DNA from: a virus
Virus record (IMG/VR): IMGVR_UViG_3300040815_000389
Span: 1-35,259 of that record
Direction: 5' to 3' (one strand)
Length of the DNA stretch: 35,259 bases
Shown here: positions 21,590-35,259 of the stretch, piece after piece
Layout: each line of letters starts with the position of its first letter
How positions within the stretch are numbered: the stretch's first letter is position 1
Program-made: the position numbers and the translations under genes
Notes under the pieces: model-generated
What the model saw: only the letters and a program-made list of their open reading frames with translations
Database searches by the model: none
Told to the model about the DNA's origin: nothing

Positions 21590-21857
21590 ACAAGTCTCCT
21601 ACATATTTATTGCGGACCTTTTTCGGACGTCCACGACTCCGTATTTCATTTTCATGTTCTTTGGCTACATCACGCTTACACAACTCAACCATCTTAAGAT
21701 ACTGACTGGCCCCTATCTCCTTCAAGCCATGTCCGTCAAAACCCTTAGTCATTTTCCAGTAGCCACTTGGATCGGTAAACTTGTATTCCAACGGTTTACC
21801 CTCGTTGAACTCATTACACACGAGTTTATAGAATTCACGTAATGTTTTGTAAGACAT
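21582..21857 (-). CDS. Hypothetical protein with AT-hook-like motif
   Basis: 91 residues, not recognised. Residues 1-50 read MSYKTLREFYKLVCNEFNEG, then FTDPSGYWKMTKGFDGHG. The C-terminal third has a long charged helix and then RSRGRPKKVRNK (about 72-83), with the core GRP flanked by basic residues of an AT-hook, a minor-groove DNA-binding element. It follows the methyltransferase with a 23-base overlap, so both may act on DNA. The family is unknown; the AT-hook is a motif-level reading only. Confidence 0.62.
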   Translation of the reverse strand: MSYKTLREFYKLVCNEFNEGKPLEYKFTDPSGYWKMTKGFDGHGLKEIGASQYLKMVELCKRDVAKEHENEIRSRGRPKKVRNKYVGDLYE

Positions 21858-22869
21858 GTTTAATCACCTCAACTGTCCAACCATTACCTAACATCTTATA
21901 TCTTTGTGTATTAGATACACCTTCTGTATAACCATCAGGTACAGTTTGTAATCGTTCACATTCTAATGGTGTTAGTTTTCTGTAATACATTTTATCTTGA
22001 GTTAAGACATTATCTTTTTGTACAGATGTTAATGTGTTTGTTTTATTGTCTTCACGCAACTCTAACATTTGTGTATATTCTTTTGAACCAGGCGTAATTT
22101 GTCTTCCACGCAATGCACCGCATGCTATTTTAGGTTGACGATTGCCACCATTCATGGAGTTTAATGTAGGGGCTTTACCTTCAGAACTATAGATTCTTTT
22201 TAATATATCATGTCCATTAATATCATTAGCCATACCCACTTGTACCATAGTACGTTGTCTTTTTTCAATACTATTCCAAGCTACTGCGCCTTGGTATCTT
22301 GCCGTTAAACAAAAAGATTTTTTATCAGATGTAGTCATCTCATCTGTCGCAATACCATTTTCTAATATGTCTTTTAATACAATATCACGATCTTCAGGTT
22401 GGGTAATGTTAGGTATATTGGTCCAGTACAATCGCACTCGATTCTGTGCAGAGACTAATGCACTGTTAATCATAATCGGTTCAACACCGAGATGTTCTGT
22501 AATGACATCCTGATATTCTTTCTTCATCCGAACATTCTCTAGTAGAAAGTATTTAGGATTACATTCTTTTAACAGTCTAACAAACTCAAAGAATAATGCA
22601 GACCTTGGATCGTTAAAGTTTAACTGTTTACCCGCAAAACTAAATCCTTGACAAGGACTACCCCCTAAGAGTAAATCAATTTTTTCTAAATCCTCACCTT
22701 TAACTTTAGTGACATCACCTAGATGTATAGTCTCTGGAAAGTTATTCTGTGTCACACGCATTGCATAAGGATCTATTTCTGCTGCATAATAGTTATCCAC
22801 AGGTATACCTAACTGATCTAAAGCTATTTGACCACAACTCATTCCGTCGAACAGGCTTAATACATTCAT
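21835..22869 (-). CDS. DNA C5-cytosine methyltransferase
   Basis: 344 residues. Motif I is FDGMSCGQIAL (7-17), motif IV GGSPCQGFSFAG (69-80) with nucleophile C73, motif VI ENV (111-113), motif VIII QNRVRLYW (142-149), motif IX/X LECERLQTVPDGYT and YKMLGNGWTVEVI at the end. The target-recognition region between 150 and 300 is unlike any I recognise. No restriction gene is next to it, so it is a solitary enzyme, probably protecting phage DNA from host restriction or marking it. It lies near the start of the leftward arm. The stop of the 30-residue gene overlaps its ATG by 4 bases (TGAATG region). Confidence 0.92.
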   Translation of the reverse strand: MNVLSLFDGMSCGQIALDQLGIPVDNYYAAEIDPYAMRVTQNNFPETIHLGDVTKVKGEDLEKIDLLLGGSPCQGFSFAGKQLNFNDPRSALFFEFVRLLKECNPKYFLLENVRMKKEYQDVITEHLGVEPIMINSALVSAQNRVRLYWTNIPNITQPEDRDIVLKDILENGIATDEMTTSDKKSFCLTARYQGAVAWNSIEKRQRTMVQVGMANDINGHDILKRIYSSEGKAPTLNSMNGGNRQPKIACGALRGRQITPGSKEYTQMLELREDNKTNTLTSVQKDNVLTQDKMYYRKLTPLECERLQTVPDGYTEGVSNTQRYKMLGNGWTVEVIKHVLQNIT

Positions 22870-22958
22870 TTCTTTTTACCAAAGATACGTTCAAAGTTCT
22901 CTTCAAACTTCTTGCGATCTACTGGTCTAGGTGTACTGCCTTTGCCGCCATCACTCAT
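22866..22958 (-). CDS. Tiny conserved phage protein (30 aa)
   Basis: 30 residues: MSDGGKGSTPRPVDRKKF then ENFERIFGKKK. This pattern, with GGKGS-x-x-RP-D-x-x-F and a terminal IFG, is a tiny conserved protein found in many podoviruses and other phages near early DNA metabolism genes. The function is unknown. A purine-rich site (AAAAAGGAAA) precedes the start. ATGA couples its start to the stop of the 63-residue gene, and its own stop overlaps the methyltransferase start. Confidence 0.78.
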   Translation of the reverse strand: MSDGGKGSTPRPVDRKKFEENFERIFGKKK

Positions 22959-23146
22959 TTGATTTCCTTTTTGATTAAACCTTCTGGTAAATATATATAA
23001 TCTTCCATTAAACAAATTGATGACTGATGCGTTGGGTAATGCTCTTGTTGATACTTGTTTGCTTCAGCACAGTTTGTAAAATGTCCCACATACTCCGGGT
23101 TTTTATAGTCATTAAATAAATACACCACTAACACAAACTCAAACAT
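22955..23146 (-). CDS. Conserved small phage protein (63 aa)
   Basis: 63 residues. It begins with a hydrophobic strand FEFVLVVYLF, followed by YKNPEYVGHFTNCAEANKYQQEHYP and SSICLMEDYIYLPEGL. Two cysteines (in TNCAEA and SICL) and the pattern Y-G-F-x-x-C-x-x-A-N-x-Y are shared by small phage proteins I have seen but whose role is unknown. No signal cleavage site is obvious; it is probably a compact cytoplasmic fold. It overlaps the regulator gene by 8 bases. Confidence 0.65.
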   Translation of the reverse strand: MFEFVLVVYLFNDYKNPEYVGHFTNCAEANKYQQEHYPTHQSSICLMEDYIYLPEGLIKKEIK

Positions 23147-23564
23147 CTTTTCCTCCCTCGATCTCGGTATAGCGTTTTATATAGTTGATGTCTTCATTGT
23201 CTAGCATATAACCTTTGACATCATCCCATTTAACACTATTATCATACACAATCCTCCTTAAGTTACCACGGATTCCTGGGTATGCCGACCTAGGCCTCAT
23301 CTCTACATAACCTAACTTCATCAGCTTTTGTAGATGGTATTGTATTGTTGGGTAAGTGACCTTGAGCTTTTCCGCTAGGGTTCTAATGCCCACAATACTA
23401 AATCCTTGTTTGTTACAATATCCAGCTAGTACAGCTAACACTCTTAGATTGCCGGGAGTTACTTTCTGATCTAAGACTGCTTTAAAGGGTATCACTACAA
23501 AATGCCTGTGATCTTTATTCCTGAGCTTTTGTATCTTGATCGATTCAGGTATCTTGTATTCCAT
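23139..23564 (-). CDS. Winged-helix regulator, first gene of leftward arm
   Basis: 141 residues. After an N-terminal strand-rich part, residues about 37-90 form a winged helix-turn-helix: TPGNLRVLAVLAGYCNKQGF, IRTLAEKLKVTYPTIQYHLQKLMKLGYVEMR, with the recognition helix around 70-83. It resembles plasmid and phage regulators of the MarR/ArsR-like or Rep-N type. Being the first gene beside the putative origin and under a palindrome, it probably controls the divergent promoters; a role in origin binding is also possible. No catalytic motif. The -10 lies so close that the mRNA may be nearly leaderless. Confidence 0.78.
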   Translation of the reverse strand: MEYKIPESIKIQKLRNKDHRHFVVIPFKAVLDQKVTPGNLRVLAVLAGYCNKQGFSIVGIRTLAEKLKVTYPTIQYHLQKLMKLGYVEMRPRSAYPGIRGNLRRIVYDNSVKWDDVKGYMLDNEDINYIKRYTEIEGGKDV

Positions 23565-23579
23565 AGATATAGTATATCT
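23565..23579. promoter_or_regulatory. Palindromic operator candidate
   Basis: AGATATA-G-TATATCT is a perfect 7-base inverted repeat with one central base, directly before the regulator ATG and covering its -10 element. The position is that of an autoregulatory operator, most simply for the winged-helix protein itself. Confidence 0.55.
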
Positions 23580-23598
23580 GAAAGATAGTTAAGTGCAA
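23571..23598 (-). promoter_or_regulatory. Putative leftward sigma70-like promoter
   Basis: On the minus strand a -10 TATACT (23576-23571, 5 of 6) lies 16 bases after TTGCAC (23598-23593, a weak -35). Transcription would begin close to the regulator ATG at 23564. It overlaps the palindrome at 23565-23579. Confidence 0.5.
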
Positions 23599-23915
23599 GT
23601 CTTGTAATCTACTACAGTTATGCTAATATGTATTTAACGGGGCTATGACCCAGCCCTCTGGAATGTAGATAGCGACAGACCAGGATAAACGTGTTTAACC
23701 GCAGAGATCTCTCCTATTAGAAGTATATAAAGGTATCGGGAATCGTGAAAGCGGGCGTACAGCATACTAGATAAACGAGAGCTATCCACTTAATTGTGTT
23801 AACTGATAAATACCTTTTTTTTATCGGGTTTGGTTCTATTACTCCAAGTTATCAACATGACATGCTGACCGCATGCTCCATTGATATATATATAACTAAT
23901 GTTCATGAGGACACC
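23580..23915. other. Non-coding divergent leader region
   Basis: No convincing gene. It holds several inverted repeats: GGGCT/AGCCC near 23642-23659, TAAAC/GTTTA near 23686-23697, and the perfect 10-base palindrome AGAGATCTCT at 23703-23712. A weak rightward promoter may lie at TTGTAA (23602-23607) with TAATAT (23624-23629), spacing 16. The middle is more GC-rich than its flanks, as expected for a structured leader RNA, but no known riboswitch or tRNA pattern fits. Confidence 0.45.
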
Positions 23916-24098
23916 ATGCAAGAATCACCATGCATTTACCAGTGTAGACTTGAGTCTATAGACAATATCGAGTTGTGTATCTCGTGTGGCCGTACACGTG
24001 ATGAGATTGTCAACTGGCGTGACTTTGACCAGGCTCAACGCGATACCGTGTTTCAGCTATCCAACCAGAGACTTCTAGGAAAACTGGGAAAAATTTGA
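23916..24098 (+). CDS. DUF1289-like zinc-ribbon protein
   Basis: 60 residues from ATG at 23916, chosen because GAGG lies 5 bases upstream and the homologous region starts there; an in-frame ATG at 23796 would add 40 residues without similarity. The product reads SPCIYQCRLE, then ELCISCGRTRDEIVNW: four cysteines (6, 10, 21, 24) and the CxGCGRTxDEIxxW pattern of DUF1289, a small bacterial domain of unknown function. The cysteines may bind metal. It is the first gene of the rightward arm, just before the DnaA-box cluster. Transfer from a bacterial chromosome is likely. Confidence 0.8.
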   Translation: MQESPCIYQCRLESIDNIELCISCGRTRDEIVNWRDFDQAQRDTVFQLSNQRLLGKLGKI

Positions 24099-24353
24099 GT
24101 CATAGGGATAGACAGAAAGACACCCCCCCCAGCCCCCCAAAGGTGAGTTTTCCACAAGTTATCCACAAGGGTTATCCACAGAATAGGTTGAGATATCCAC
24201 AGGGCTTTATGAGTTATCCACAATACCAGGGCGCACAATTAAGACGGGGTTATGACATATAAATTAAACTAGTTATAACCAAACCTCTTATAAGGTGTTA
24301 TGTATCAACGATACTAAAACATCATGGTTATTTATTCATGATTAAAAAAGTAT

Positions 24354-24383
24354 TTGCATTTTAGATATCTTTATGTTTATAAT
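24354..24383 (+). promoter_or_regulatory. Putative rightward early promoter
   Basis: A perfect -10 TATAAT (24378-24383) lies 18 bases after TTGCAT (24354-24359), a weak -35. It precedes the first of the small accessory genes by 55 bases. The leader contains a small hairpin ACGGC/GCCGT (24390-24408). Confidence 0.65.
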
Positions 24384-24407
24384 TACACAACGGCAAACAA
24401 AAAGCCG

Positions 24408-24437
24408 TCATTTTATAAACTTAGAAAGGTAAACAAA
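24408..24437 (+). repeat. Repeated early-gene leader, copy 1
   Basis: TCATTTTATAAACTT, one base, then GAAAGGTAAACAAA leads straight into ATG. Copy 3 (25469-25496) shares TCATTTTATAAACTT and GAAAGGTA. Copies 2 (24821-24844) and 4 (26261-26283) share AAACCGAG-AAGGTA-ACAAA. All carry the AAGGT ribosome site at fixed distance, so the leader has been duplicated with the small genes. Confidence 0.6.
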
Positions 24438-24797
24438 ATGAAAACAATAGAGCAAATACTCACAGCAACAGAGTTACAGAAGCACAAAGAATTCCATTCA
24501 TTAATTAATAACGTTTCACCAGAATGGCGCGAGGAAGTATATTTTGATCAAATGAACGAGGAAATGCGCCAGATCTTTAACAAGATCCGCATTGTTCGCG
24601 CGATGGAAATTCCAGGCCTTTGGAAATATAAAAACTTCAATGTTAAAACTGGATATTTCAATCTTGTTGAAAAGATTATATTAGATGATAAACACTTTAT
24701 AAGTTTTGCAAATAGAGAGCCAGAAATCTGGTATCAATCTGAAACTGGCGGATCATTTCCGTTAGATCTTAAAAACAAGTCAAAGGCGGTGGCTTAA
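24438..24797 (+). CDS. Hypothetical early protein (119 aa)
   Basis: 119 residues from ATG at 24438; an upstream in-frame ATG at 24354 falls inside the promoter and is rejected. The start follows the repeated leader with AAAGGTA. Sequence is charged and helical (MKTIEQILTATELQKHKEF, then WREEVYFDQMNEEMRQIFNKI), with a later aromatic part (FISFANREPEIWYQSETGG). No known family. Its stop codon lies in the loop of a terminator hairpin, so it may be a single-gene transcript. Probably a host-directed accessory protein, by position only. Confidence 0.65.
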   Translation: MKTIEQILTATELQKHKEFHSLINNVSPEWREEVYFDQMNEEMRQIFNKIRIVRAMEIPGLWKYKNFNVKTGYFNLVEKIILDDKHFISFANREPEIWYQSETGGSFPLDLKNKSKAVA

Positions 24798-29486: not shown

Positions 29487-29500
29487 ACCCCTTTTCTTTT
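29475..29500. terminator. Convergent terminator between the two arms
   Basis: AAGGGGTC (29475-29482) and GACCCCTT (29486-29493) form an 8-bp stem with the three-base loop ATA. The rightward side has TTCTTTT and ends the 258-residue gene, whose TAG starts in the loop; the leftward side ends just after the pqqA stop (29499) with a less regular T-run. It probably works mainly rightward but may stop both arms. Confidence 0.75.
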
Positions 29501-29570
29501 ACTTGTTACAAACGTACATTGTTACTTCAAAACCGAAACGCATTTCAGTTGCTGCTGGTTTAGTCCACAT
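29499..29570 (-). CDS. pqqA: PQQ precursor peptide PqqA
   Basis: A 23-residue gene with a strong AAGGAG site 6 bases before ATG (29570). The peptide begins MWTKPA, then [12 protein letters not shown], and ends VCNK. The core F-E-V-T-M-Y holds the Glu (15) and Tyr (19) which, three residues apart, are linked by PqqE and become the skeleton of pyrroloquinoline quinone; MWTKPA and RFGFEVTMY match PqqA peptides from many proteobacteria. No other pqq gene is in the window, so the host must supply PqqB, C, D and E. It is the last gene of the leftward arm. It would raise precursor supply in an infected PQQ-making host. Certainty is high for family, moderate for effect. Confidence 0.88.
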
Positions 29571-33149: not shown

Positions 33150-33437
33150 CTATTTTGCTCCTATTTTAATCTTGGCTGATTCTGCTAATAACTTCACACT
33201 GTTCTCATTTGCCTTTACCATTTCATTTCTGAATGATTCAACTGCGGCTCCCGTCTGTCTCTGCATGCCAGAGTTCTCGACTAATAACATGGGTAGCCAT
33301 GTTACTGCACAAGAGTATTCATCTACCTCTTTCCCTGTGTTCATGTCTGTCCCTTGTAACTTAGTAAACCACATGCACTTTAAACCCATGCACTTCTTGT
33401 TTATTAATGGACAGTGTTCACCTTTAGGTAATTGCAT
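33150..33437 (-). CDS. Small Cys-rich protein after tail fibre (95 aa)
   Basis: 95 residues. The N-terminal CPLINKKCMGLKCMWF and a later YSCAVTW give four cysteines (about 9, 16, 21 and 44), a possible metal or Fe-S site. Then LPMLLVENSGMQRQTGAAVESF and a helical tail. This pattern recurs in short genes beside phage fibres; the function is not known. It starts 2 bases after the fibre stop and ends one base before the DUF4376-type gene. Confidence 0.68.
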   Translation of the reverse strand: MQLPKGEHCPLINKKCMGLKCMWFTKLQGTDMNTGKEVDEYSCAVTWLPMLLVENSGMQRQTGAAVESFRNEMVKANENSVKLLAESAKIKIGAK

Positions 33438-33439
33438 TA

Positions 33440-35259
33440 TTAATCCTTAGTTGCTGTTATAACATCTAAATATTTTACAGCTAAATCAATTGTATCACTA
33501 CCTGTAAATGTGTGATTGTGAGCTGTGCCTGTAAAGCCGTGGCTATGCGCTCCACCACCGCCTGTAGCATTCGTTGTTTTGTTGGTTGTTGGACTTGCTC
33601 TATTCTCTTTAGCATAAGATTGTGTACCACCTGATTTTGTTGTAGCACCATCCCATGGTCCAGTTAATGTATGAGTGTGGCTTGGAATGTTAGCAGTAGC
33701 TAGTGTGTGGTTAGCCACTGTACCACCAGCTGTAGTATTGTCTGTTGTACCTGATACGCTCACTGCTTGACTCACAAATGCTGAAGTAAAGTCTACTGTA
33801 CCACCTGTGCTTGCTGTGCCTGTGGTGACTCTTAATGCATGGTTGTCATAATTCGTTGTGTCTTTAGTCCATCCTGTTGGTGCAGTATTCTGTGCAAACA
33901 ACATTCGAGTGCCACTACTAAATGATACGACATCTGCCCATGACATTGTGCCATCACCATCAGATGCTAAGAACTGACCAGCAGTACCATTGCCTGATAC
34001 ATTAATTTGTGTAGCACCAATGCCATTATCTTTAACAGCAAACTGTGTGCCTGTGAGTTCTAAGGTAACTGCATCTGCTGAGTATAATGTTGCACCAGAG
34101 ACTTGACTCCAGGACTGTCCTGTAAAGTCAGTTGTATCATAGTTAGATTGTATCCAGCCTGATGCGCCATACGTTGTTCCTTCTAATACAAATAACTTAG
34201 CCCCTTGTAGTTCTGTATAAACATCACCATCCGTTGATCTTGATAATGTATAGTTTGCACCATCATCACCATAGACATAGATACCATTCTCAGAATCTGT
34301 AGATTGTCCTGTAAGTAATAATCTATAGCCAGCATCTGCTGTTACTAATGCAGCATGACCATCAATCACTAATGTGCCTGTTGTGCCAGTGAGGGAGATG
34401 TTGCTATCAGCATGTAGGTTGACTGCTTCTTTCCATTGTAATCCTGTAATAGCTGTATCAACATACGCTTTAGTTGCTACATCACTATCTGATGTTGGGG
34501 TTGACATACCTGTGACTGAACCACCAGTAATTGCTACACTGTTGGCATTTTGTGTAGCCATTGTGCCAGCACTTGCATTGTCAAATGGTGTATATGTTAA
34601 TGCGCCTGTAACATCGGCAGATGATAATGTCACTGCACCAGTTCTAGTATTGAATGATGTAACTAATCCACTTGCAGAGAATGCAGCTGCATCCCATGCA
34701 GATCCATCCCATATATATAATTGATCTACAGTAGTATTAAAATATAAGTCCCCTGTTTGTAATGCACTACTATCTTTTCTTGTGCTTGGAGCAGAAGCTG
34801 ATGGGCCATAATATACACCAGCAAAGTTACTTACATCTGTCACATTGTCTGCAACTGTTGTTACGTCCGTGCTAATACCAGCCACTGTGGTGACATCAGT
34901 TGATATTCCAGCCACTGTTGTGACGCTTGCATTGTTAGCAGCAACAGTATTTACATCAGATGAGATACCACCCACTGTAGTTACATCACTGCTAATTCCA
35001 GCTAAGGTAGTAATGTTCGCATCATTACCAGCGACAGTATTCACATTAGCAATGTTACCACCGACATTGTTTACGTTAGTAATGTTAGTAGCTACTGTGC
35101 CAATGTCTGCTTGATCTGCTACGACAGCAGTGACATCAGAACTAATACCAGCAACTGTAGTGACGTTAGCTGAGATGCCAGATACTGTAGTCACATCAGA
35201 GCTTATGCCAGCCACTGTGCCAATGTCTGTGCCATCAGCTGCCACTGTTGATACATCTG
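33440..35259 (-). CDS. Tail fibre protein, C-terminal part (runs off right edge)
   Basis: The same tail fibre gene as at 1-1653 after circle closure. The frame is open to the right edge; the GTG at 35245 is inside the repeats, not a real start. In order: decapeptide repeats (VTTVAGISTD type) to about 34840, an adhesin-like GDLYFNTTVDQLYIWDGSAW segment, several beta-rich repeats, and from about 33920 a C-terminal collar-like domain (PTGWTKDT, IPSHTHTLTGP, GAHSHGF, AHNHTF). The His-x-His pairs can hold metal in a trimer, as in short fibres such as T4 gp12. This end should bind the host receptor. Confidence 0.9.
   Translation of the reverse strand, partial: DVSTVAADGTDIGTVAGISSDVTTVSGISANVTTVAGISSDVTAVVADQADIGTVATNITNVNNVGGNIANVNTVAGNDANITTLAGISSDVTTVGGISSDVNTVAANNASVTTVAGISTDVTTVAGISTDVTTVADNVTDVSNFAGVYYGPSASAPSTRKDSSALQTGDLYFNTTVDQLYIWDGSAWDAAAFSASGLVTSFNTRTGAVTLSSADVTGALTYTPFDNASAGTMATQNANSVAITGGSVTGMSTPTSDSDVATKAYVDTAITGLQWKEAVNLHADSNISLTGTTGTLVIDGHAALVTADAGYRLLLTGQSTDSENGIYVYGDDGANYTLSRSTDGDVYTELQGAKLFVLEGTTYGASGWIQSNYDTTDFTGQSWSQVSGATLYSADAVTLELTGTQFAVKDNGIGATQINVSGNGTAGQFLASDGDGTMSWADVVSFSSGTRMLFAQNTAPTGWTKDTTNYDNHALRVTTGTASTGGTVDFTSAFVSQAVSVSGTTDNTTAGGTVANHTLATANIPSHTHTLTGPWDGATTKSGGTQSYAKENRASPTTNKTTNATGGGGAHSHGFTGTAHNHTFTGSDTIDLAVKYLDVITATKD
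34523..35259. repeat. Right copy of 737-base terminal overlap
   Basis: Partner of bases 1-737; gap-free, with about 39 mismatches counted by eye. The two copies are equivalent segments of one tail-fibre gene, so the unit genome is 34,522 bases if they are merged. Confidence 0.9.

Follow-up and report, generated by a model that had tools for sequence, protein, structure and literature searches.

The DNA analyzed here, a 35,259-base virus record from IMG/VR (the window), carries a tandem array of five DnaA-box-like 9-mers that, judged from its sequence, very probably binds DnaA. Comparison with related phages shows this array to be an exchangeable cassette, gained and lost, and not the conserved core of its locus. 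That core would consist of a phage-encoded O-like winged-helix protein and a pseudoknotted RNA read rightward, and positions 23139–24437 as a whole would form the replication-initiation and early-control region of the phage. The best single reading is that the array and the O-like protein act jointly in starting replication, and we hold it with about as much doubt as confidence. The RNA is uncatalogued and is a more novel object than the array. The features of the region are as follows.

23139–23564, minus strand: O-like winged-helix protein, 141 amino acids (PHROG replication-initiation families; AlphaFold model)
23602–23629, plus strand: promoter-like TTGTAA-N16-TAATAT, just 5' of the RNA (read from the sequence)
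23636–23838, plus strand: conserved structured non-coding RNA, with the core to approximately 23800 and a 3' hairpin to approximately 23838 (covariation)
23668–23673, plus strand: 5' half of the pseudoknot helix in the RNA, GATAGC, in the apical loop of P2 (covariation)
23781–23786, plus strand: 3' half of the pseudoknot helix in the RNA, GCTATC, immediately following GATAAACGAGA (23770–23780) (covariation)
23916–24098, plus strand: DUF1289 open reading frame (ORF), 60 amino acids (PF06945, E 8e-14)
24123–24138, plus strand: C8-AG-C6 homopolymer tract (sequence)
24148–24222, plus strand: DnaA-box array, with TTTTCCACA at 24148, TTATCCACA at 24159, 24172, and 24214, and ATATCCACA at 24193
24223–24437, no strand assigned: AT-rich flank, 28% G+C, with a promoter-like TTGCAT (24354) and TATAAT (24378) recognized by eye only
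24438–24797, plus strand: first right-arm gene, 119 amino acids (no family match)

The structural genes of the window are T7-like, including tail tubular-type proteins, a head-tail connector, and a T7-type capsid assembly protein, and among named phages the best match is Methylophilales phage MEP301 (MW452941). No T7 replisome was found with them, in line with the original prediction. It had also been claimed that polymerase, primase, and helicase genes are all missing. Neither a polymerase nor a replicative helicase was found in PHROG scans of 36 window proteins or in DNA_pol_A and DnaB_C searches, but an initiator-like gene is present, and a weak PHROG "DNA primase" profile match falls inside a cytosine methyltransferase gene. 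The latter (21835–22869, minus strand), near the O-like gene, encodes a Cytosine-C5 DNA methyltransferase (PF00145, E 1e-50). The window also encodes a RecE-like exonuclease, Erf, and RusA; no P-type helicase loader was found among the 36 scanned proteins, many of which are without any family match.

A previously unannotated PqqA of 23 amino acids, the precursor of the methanol dehydrogenase cofactor PQQ, is encoded at 29499–29570 on the minus strand (TIGR02107, E 5.8e-12; PF08042, E 6.3e-11) and points to a methylotroph host. Its DNA element is also matched in MEP301, Venkman, MEP401/402, Melnitz, and P19250A, and a report from Lake Baikal describes phage PqqA (accessible part of PMC7678222). 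Many small aquatic phages are without a polymerase, and how their replication starts is an open question. The accessible part of the MEP301 paper describes that phage as dependent on host machinery and says nothing more there on how replication starts (PMC8024684).

Five same-direction boxes, three of them perfect (TTATCCACA), lie within 75 bases, all on the plus strand and none reversed, exactly as had been predicted. The cluster exceeds chance: when the window was resampled 200 times with a first-order Markov model, the densest plus-strand cluster held three boxes, against the five observed. The AT-rich DNA said to adjoin the boxes is there on the right (24223–24437) but not on the left, where 24099–24147 has 59% G+C. 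The claim that the boxes lie between the divergent arms did not survive; the divergence point is at 23565–23635 instead, between the minus-strand gene at 23139–23564 and the rightward RNA at 23636–23838, and the rightward DUF1289 ORF separates the RNA from the boxes. The TTGCAT/TATAAT of the AT-rich flank was not listed in a promoter scan. TATCT/AGATA palindromes, possible operator sites for the O-like protein or some other regulator, occur at 23566–23590, near the start of the O-like gene, and at 24363–24369, in the early promoter region.

Relatives were gathered by terminase, O-like protein, exonuclease, and first right-arm protein, together with the RNA pattern. The 195 RNA copies obtained were reduced to 141 with at least 900 nt downstream and then to 92 non-redundant loci. 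Two or more boxes, at least one of them perfect, were counted as an array; the counts exclude L003 and L004, which are fragments of the window. Arrays are present in 18 of the 92 loci, all of one gene arrangement, and every one of the 18 lies approximately 430–590 nt past the RNA start on the same strand as the RNA. All 51 box spacings fall at 11–13, 21–24, 32–36, or 44–47 bp, a count taken over related and hence not independent sequences; helical phasing and a tandem, one-strand layout are thus features of the array. An AT-rich flank is found 3' of TTATCCACA in each of the 18 arrays (mean G+C 0.28, versus 0.41 on the left), and the unwinding element of Escherichia coli lies on the same side relative to box R1. 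Only the 9-mer core is strongly conserved, the flanking positions being weak, as would be expected for DnaA rather than for a long iteron.

As to the conservation of the boxes in related genomes that was implied in the original prediction, form and place are conserved but presence is not. The array is absent from 14 of the 32 relatives of the same arrangement (present in 18/32), and its distribution takes seven changes on a tree computed for these 32 loci with the slot excluded (six to seven in bootstrap replicates, at least four being forced by well-supported branches). L087 and L088 have an O-like protein that is 98% identical and the same flanks, yet are without the array, and no substitute direct-repeat array was found in either. 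The exchange is also seen in L112, which has boxes, and L114, which has none. The two match completely or almost completely through the RNA and DUF1289 region, drop to approximately 32%–42% identity for roughly 100 bp, and then recover to 84%–96%; this drop and recovery indicates that the array was exchanged between the G/C-homopolymer tract and a conserved ACTAGT-containing border. Such near-identical relatives with and without the box cassette amount to a natural experiment. In a separate lineage, L229, L231, L252, and L262 (four of the 195 loci) carry a pair of DnaA-type boxes at 12-bp spacing, located within the RNA toward its 3' end and on the opposite strand, so the association of boxes with the RNA is not confined to one arrangement.

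The homopolymer tract is itself widespread. A run of at least six G or C occupies the corresponding interval in 68 of the 92 loci; the first such run consists of G in 51 of them and of C in the other 17. It lies mostly 20–40 nt after a conserved AAAAATT(T/G) motif, changes strand between relatives, and is also found in phages without DUF1289 or boxes. As to a possible genome terminus at the tract, the contig ends gave no sharp site, scattering 200–1200 nt past the RNA start.

The RNA next to the array is kept while the array itself comes and goes. In alignment A6, comprising 60 non-redundant variants in which 11 nested pairs and the 6-bp pseudoknot were counted, standard pairs occupy 95.9% of cells, and 13 of the 17 pairs have changed on both sides. 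The covariation score of 0.523 compares with 0.153 (sd 0.010) in 500 shuffles and with values of no more than 0.10 when the partners are slid. When pairing at the pseudoknot was scored free of any alignment, runs of at least five consecutive Watson-Crick pairs were found in 55 of the 60 variants and of at least four in 58, with 23 pair types represented; the mean run was 5.16, versus 2.85 (sd 0.17) with swapped partners (25 unique combinations). G-U pairs on the plus strand favor an RNA of plus sense. RNAalifold, applied to 39 sequences, recovered P1 and P2 and one doubtful hairpin, and putative further helices and a putative loop-to-3'-end pairing were noted by eye. Because single-sequence folding of the element did no better than shuffles on either strand, it is covariation that carries the case; by this comparative measure the predicted structure is firmly supported. 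A loose version of the promoter-like pattern 5' of the RNA is found at 69 of the 92 loci, and a stricter promoter scan did not list the TTGTAA-N16-TAATAT of the window.

No Rfam 15 family (of 4227) matched the window or eight other loci above its gathering score. Scanning with the RNA pattern returned at least 119 viral stretches, with one bacterial-genome contig, in a metagenome-assembled genome, among the matches listed. Among phage records searched with blastn, only MEP301 and MW202825 gave meaningful scores, the other matches (E up to 10) looking like chance. DNA_pol_A is absent from all 21 RNA-bearing records searched and DnaB_C is matched in one, as a primase-helicase gene directly 3' of the RNA. 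In L230 and L300 the RNA stands directly 5' of a 563-amino-acid primase-helicase gene. The RNA is thus located in the replication neighborhoods of host-dependent phages. The literature searched (including the accessible parts of PMC9004378 and PMC10580990) yielded no description of the array boxes or of the RNA, which does not prove their absence from print.

Two simpler roles for the RNA were considered. A leader of the DUF1289 gene is not favored, a DUF1289-like ORF following the RNA in 23 of the 32 loci of the window's arrangement and in eight of the 60 others. R-loop priming through the G run is weakened by the change of strand of that run between relatives. A tentative proposal, possible rather than probable, is that the RNA is a widespread, dedicated origin RNA of phages, which with the O-like protein would start replication in small polymerase-less phages, as a primer, an R-loop former, or an RNA-protein initiator, the DnaA docking sites being a plug-in that is gained and lost. 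Should the RNA belong to the origin, an RNA component would take part in initiation in double-stranded DNA phages.

The O-like gene adjoins the RNA in 79 of the 87 loci with adequate flanks, always (79/79) on the opposite strand, although some contigs were fetched repeatedly. Two layouts occur: a short form left of the RNA and a long form (mostly 198–272 residues, stop to stop) right of it. The window protein is of the short form, family members in other related phages having about 196–270 residues, and its homologue in MEP301, gp55 (201 amino acids), matches the same PHROG families and groups with it in one profile family. Its matches to PHROG replication-initiation families are weak but consistent (E about 1e-5 to 2e-6; phrog_391, E 3e-5), whereas its Pfam, NCBIfam, and PDB matches are mostly generic winged helices, and a PDB profile search gave nothing significant. 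An earlier AlphaFold model was poor (pLDDT 42); the present one, built from 30 alignment rows, is a winged helix with a mean pLDDT of 79 and a pTM of 0.64. In the PDB its neighbors are for the most part generic regulators, joined by a few initiators of replication (4pt7, 5kbj); in BFVD they are helix-turn-helix proteins of phages, among them a putative O protein. The weak PHROG matches on which the identification rests hint at an O-like protein, and we infer that it may act as an initiator.

Array presence follows the form of this protein. Arrays were found in 18 of 32 short/left loci (among which L100, L102, and L105 are classed as left with a stop-to-stop ORF that runs into the RNA) and in none of 42 long/right loci, 12 loci without a detected O-like gene, or six with too little left flank. 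Restriction to the short/left form fits a model in which DnaA supplies a function that this form has lost; since the short/left loci are related, the association may be a single historical event. The parallel between short or long O-like form and presence or absence of boxes, together with the conserved pseudoknot of the RNA, offers concrete, testable parts.

Further tests gave the prediction of a DnaA-driven origin no support. The cumulative GC-skew minimum, at 24520, is near the boxes as had been predicted, but it follows the gene strand and gives no replichore signal. Third-position skew in coding orientation is alike on the left replichore (0.081), on the right replichore (0.069), and in plus-strand genes (0.073), which identifies the minimum as an effect of transcription or gene strand; GC skew was therefore rejected as independent evidence for an origin. 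DnaA-trios, sought by the rule given in the accessible part of PMC8287927, are not above chance, occurring in six of the 18 arrays against 7.6 expected from shuffled flanks and in none of the window's. No iterons for the O-like protein were found in 22900–24440 or in the O-like gene, the boxes being the only array-like repeat family there.

We present the following as a hypothesis of how the locus may work. A phage initiation locus made up of the RNA and the O-like protein would have acquired a host-DnaA docking cassette, the five boxes, with the G/C-homopolymer tract on one side and the AT-rich early promoter region on the other. The cassette would most likely recruit host DnaA, which would oligomerize along a single helical face and then help to open the AT-rich side and to load host DnaB, as in Rep-plus-DnaA plasmid origins.

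The array could alternatively be a transcriptional control site, at which bound host DnaA tunes the early rightward promoter, perhaps sensing the growth state of the host, and starts no replication. This is unlikely, but it draws on several observations: the array stands approximately 130–205 bp upstream of the promoter-like TTGCAT/TATAAT; it is optional, as many regulatory sites are; and arrays of sites for CtrA, a host cell-cycle regulator, act on transcription in other phages, in a study that saw no comparable pattern for sites of DnaA (accessible part of PMC9437464). A promoter needs less than tandem boxes that share one helical face and, in all 18 arrays, keep the AT-rich flank to the same side, and the boxes of another lineage lie inside the RNA gene. 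We consider improbable a datA-like decoy, by which multiplying phage genomes titrate DnaA and halt initiation on the host chromosome; optional, clustered, consensus sites would suit it, but titration has no need of a fixed orientation, place, and AT-rich side.

The original prediction itself, in which host DnaA on its own would open an oriC-type origin and so define a theta-type mode of replication, appears quite improbable in that strict form. Much of what suggested it stands: the array is real and conserved in form, its right side is AT-rich, and no polymerase or helicase was found. The part that fails is DnaA as sole, defining initiator, given that the phage encodes an O-like protein, close relatives are without the array, the trios do not exceed chance, and the skew is tied to transcription. 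Finally, although the 9-mers lie approximately 600 bp from the start of the O-like gene, it is highly improbable that they are iterons of the O-like protein merely resembling DnaA boxes, as L087 and L088 encode a 98% identical O-like protein with no array and strong conservation is limited to the 9-mer DnaA consensus. Joint action of the array with the O-like protein remains our preferred reading, and it can be set against several known systems.

ColE1 replicates from an origin primed by RNA II. Predicted transcription of a structured RNA toward a candidate origin, beside G/C runs, recalls that system; unlike it, the phage loci have a G/C run that changes strand and nearly always an adjacent winged-helix gene. 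The lambda-type O/P origin is suggested by the weak O-like family matches and by a structural match, one among many winged helices, to the O protein of phage Min27, but a P-like helicase loader was not identified in the window and the O-like gene contains no iterons. With the basal unwinding system of bacterial oriC the array shares tandem consensus boxes and an AT-rich side, whereas the DnaA-trios of the phage arrays are at chance level. Coliphage 186, which reportedly needs host DnaA, is a possible precedent for DnaA-dependent phage replication.

MEP301 has a similar gene order, the RNA at 33431–33613, and the homologous gp55, and the accessible part of its description reports no DNA or RNA polymerase (PMC8024684). 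It differs from the window in having no box cluster and a longer O-like gene to the right of the RNA, where the boxes sit in the window.

The closest parallels are the Rep-plus-DnaA plasmid origins (P1, F, RK2, and pSC101), which likewise combine DnaA boxes of fixed orientation, an AT-rich neighbor, a winged-helix initiator-like gene, and the host replisome; precedents in which the orientation of the boxes is critical are described in the accessible part of PMC4980987. The phage locus differs in being without iterons, in having boxes that are optional among close relatives, and in including a conserved structured RNA, and because iterons were sought and not found, we do not claim membership among plasmid origins. 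It nevertheless has the adjacent initiator-like winged-helix gene and, in 18 of 18 arrays, the AT-rich region on a fixed side, and by analogy the array may function as the DnaA component does at such an origin.
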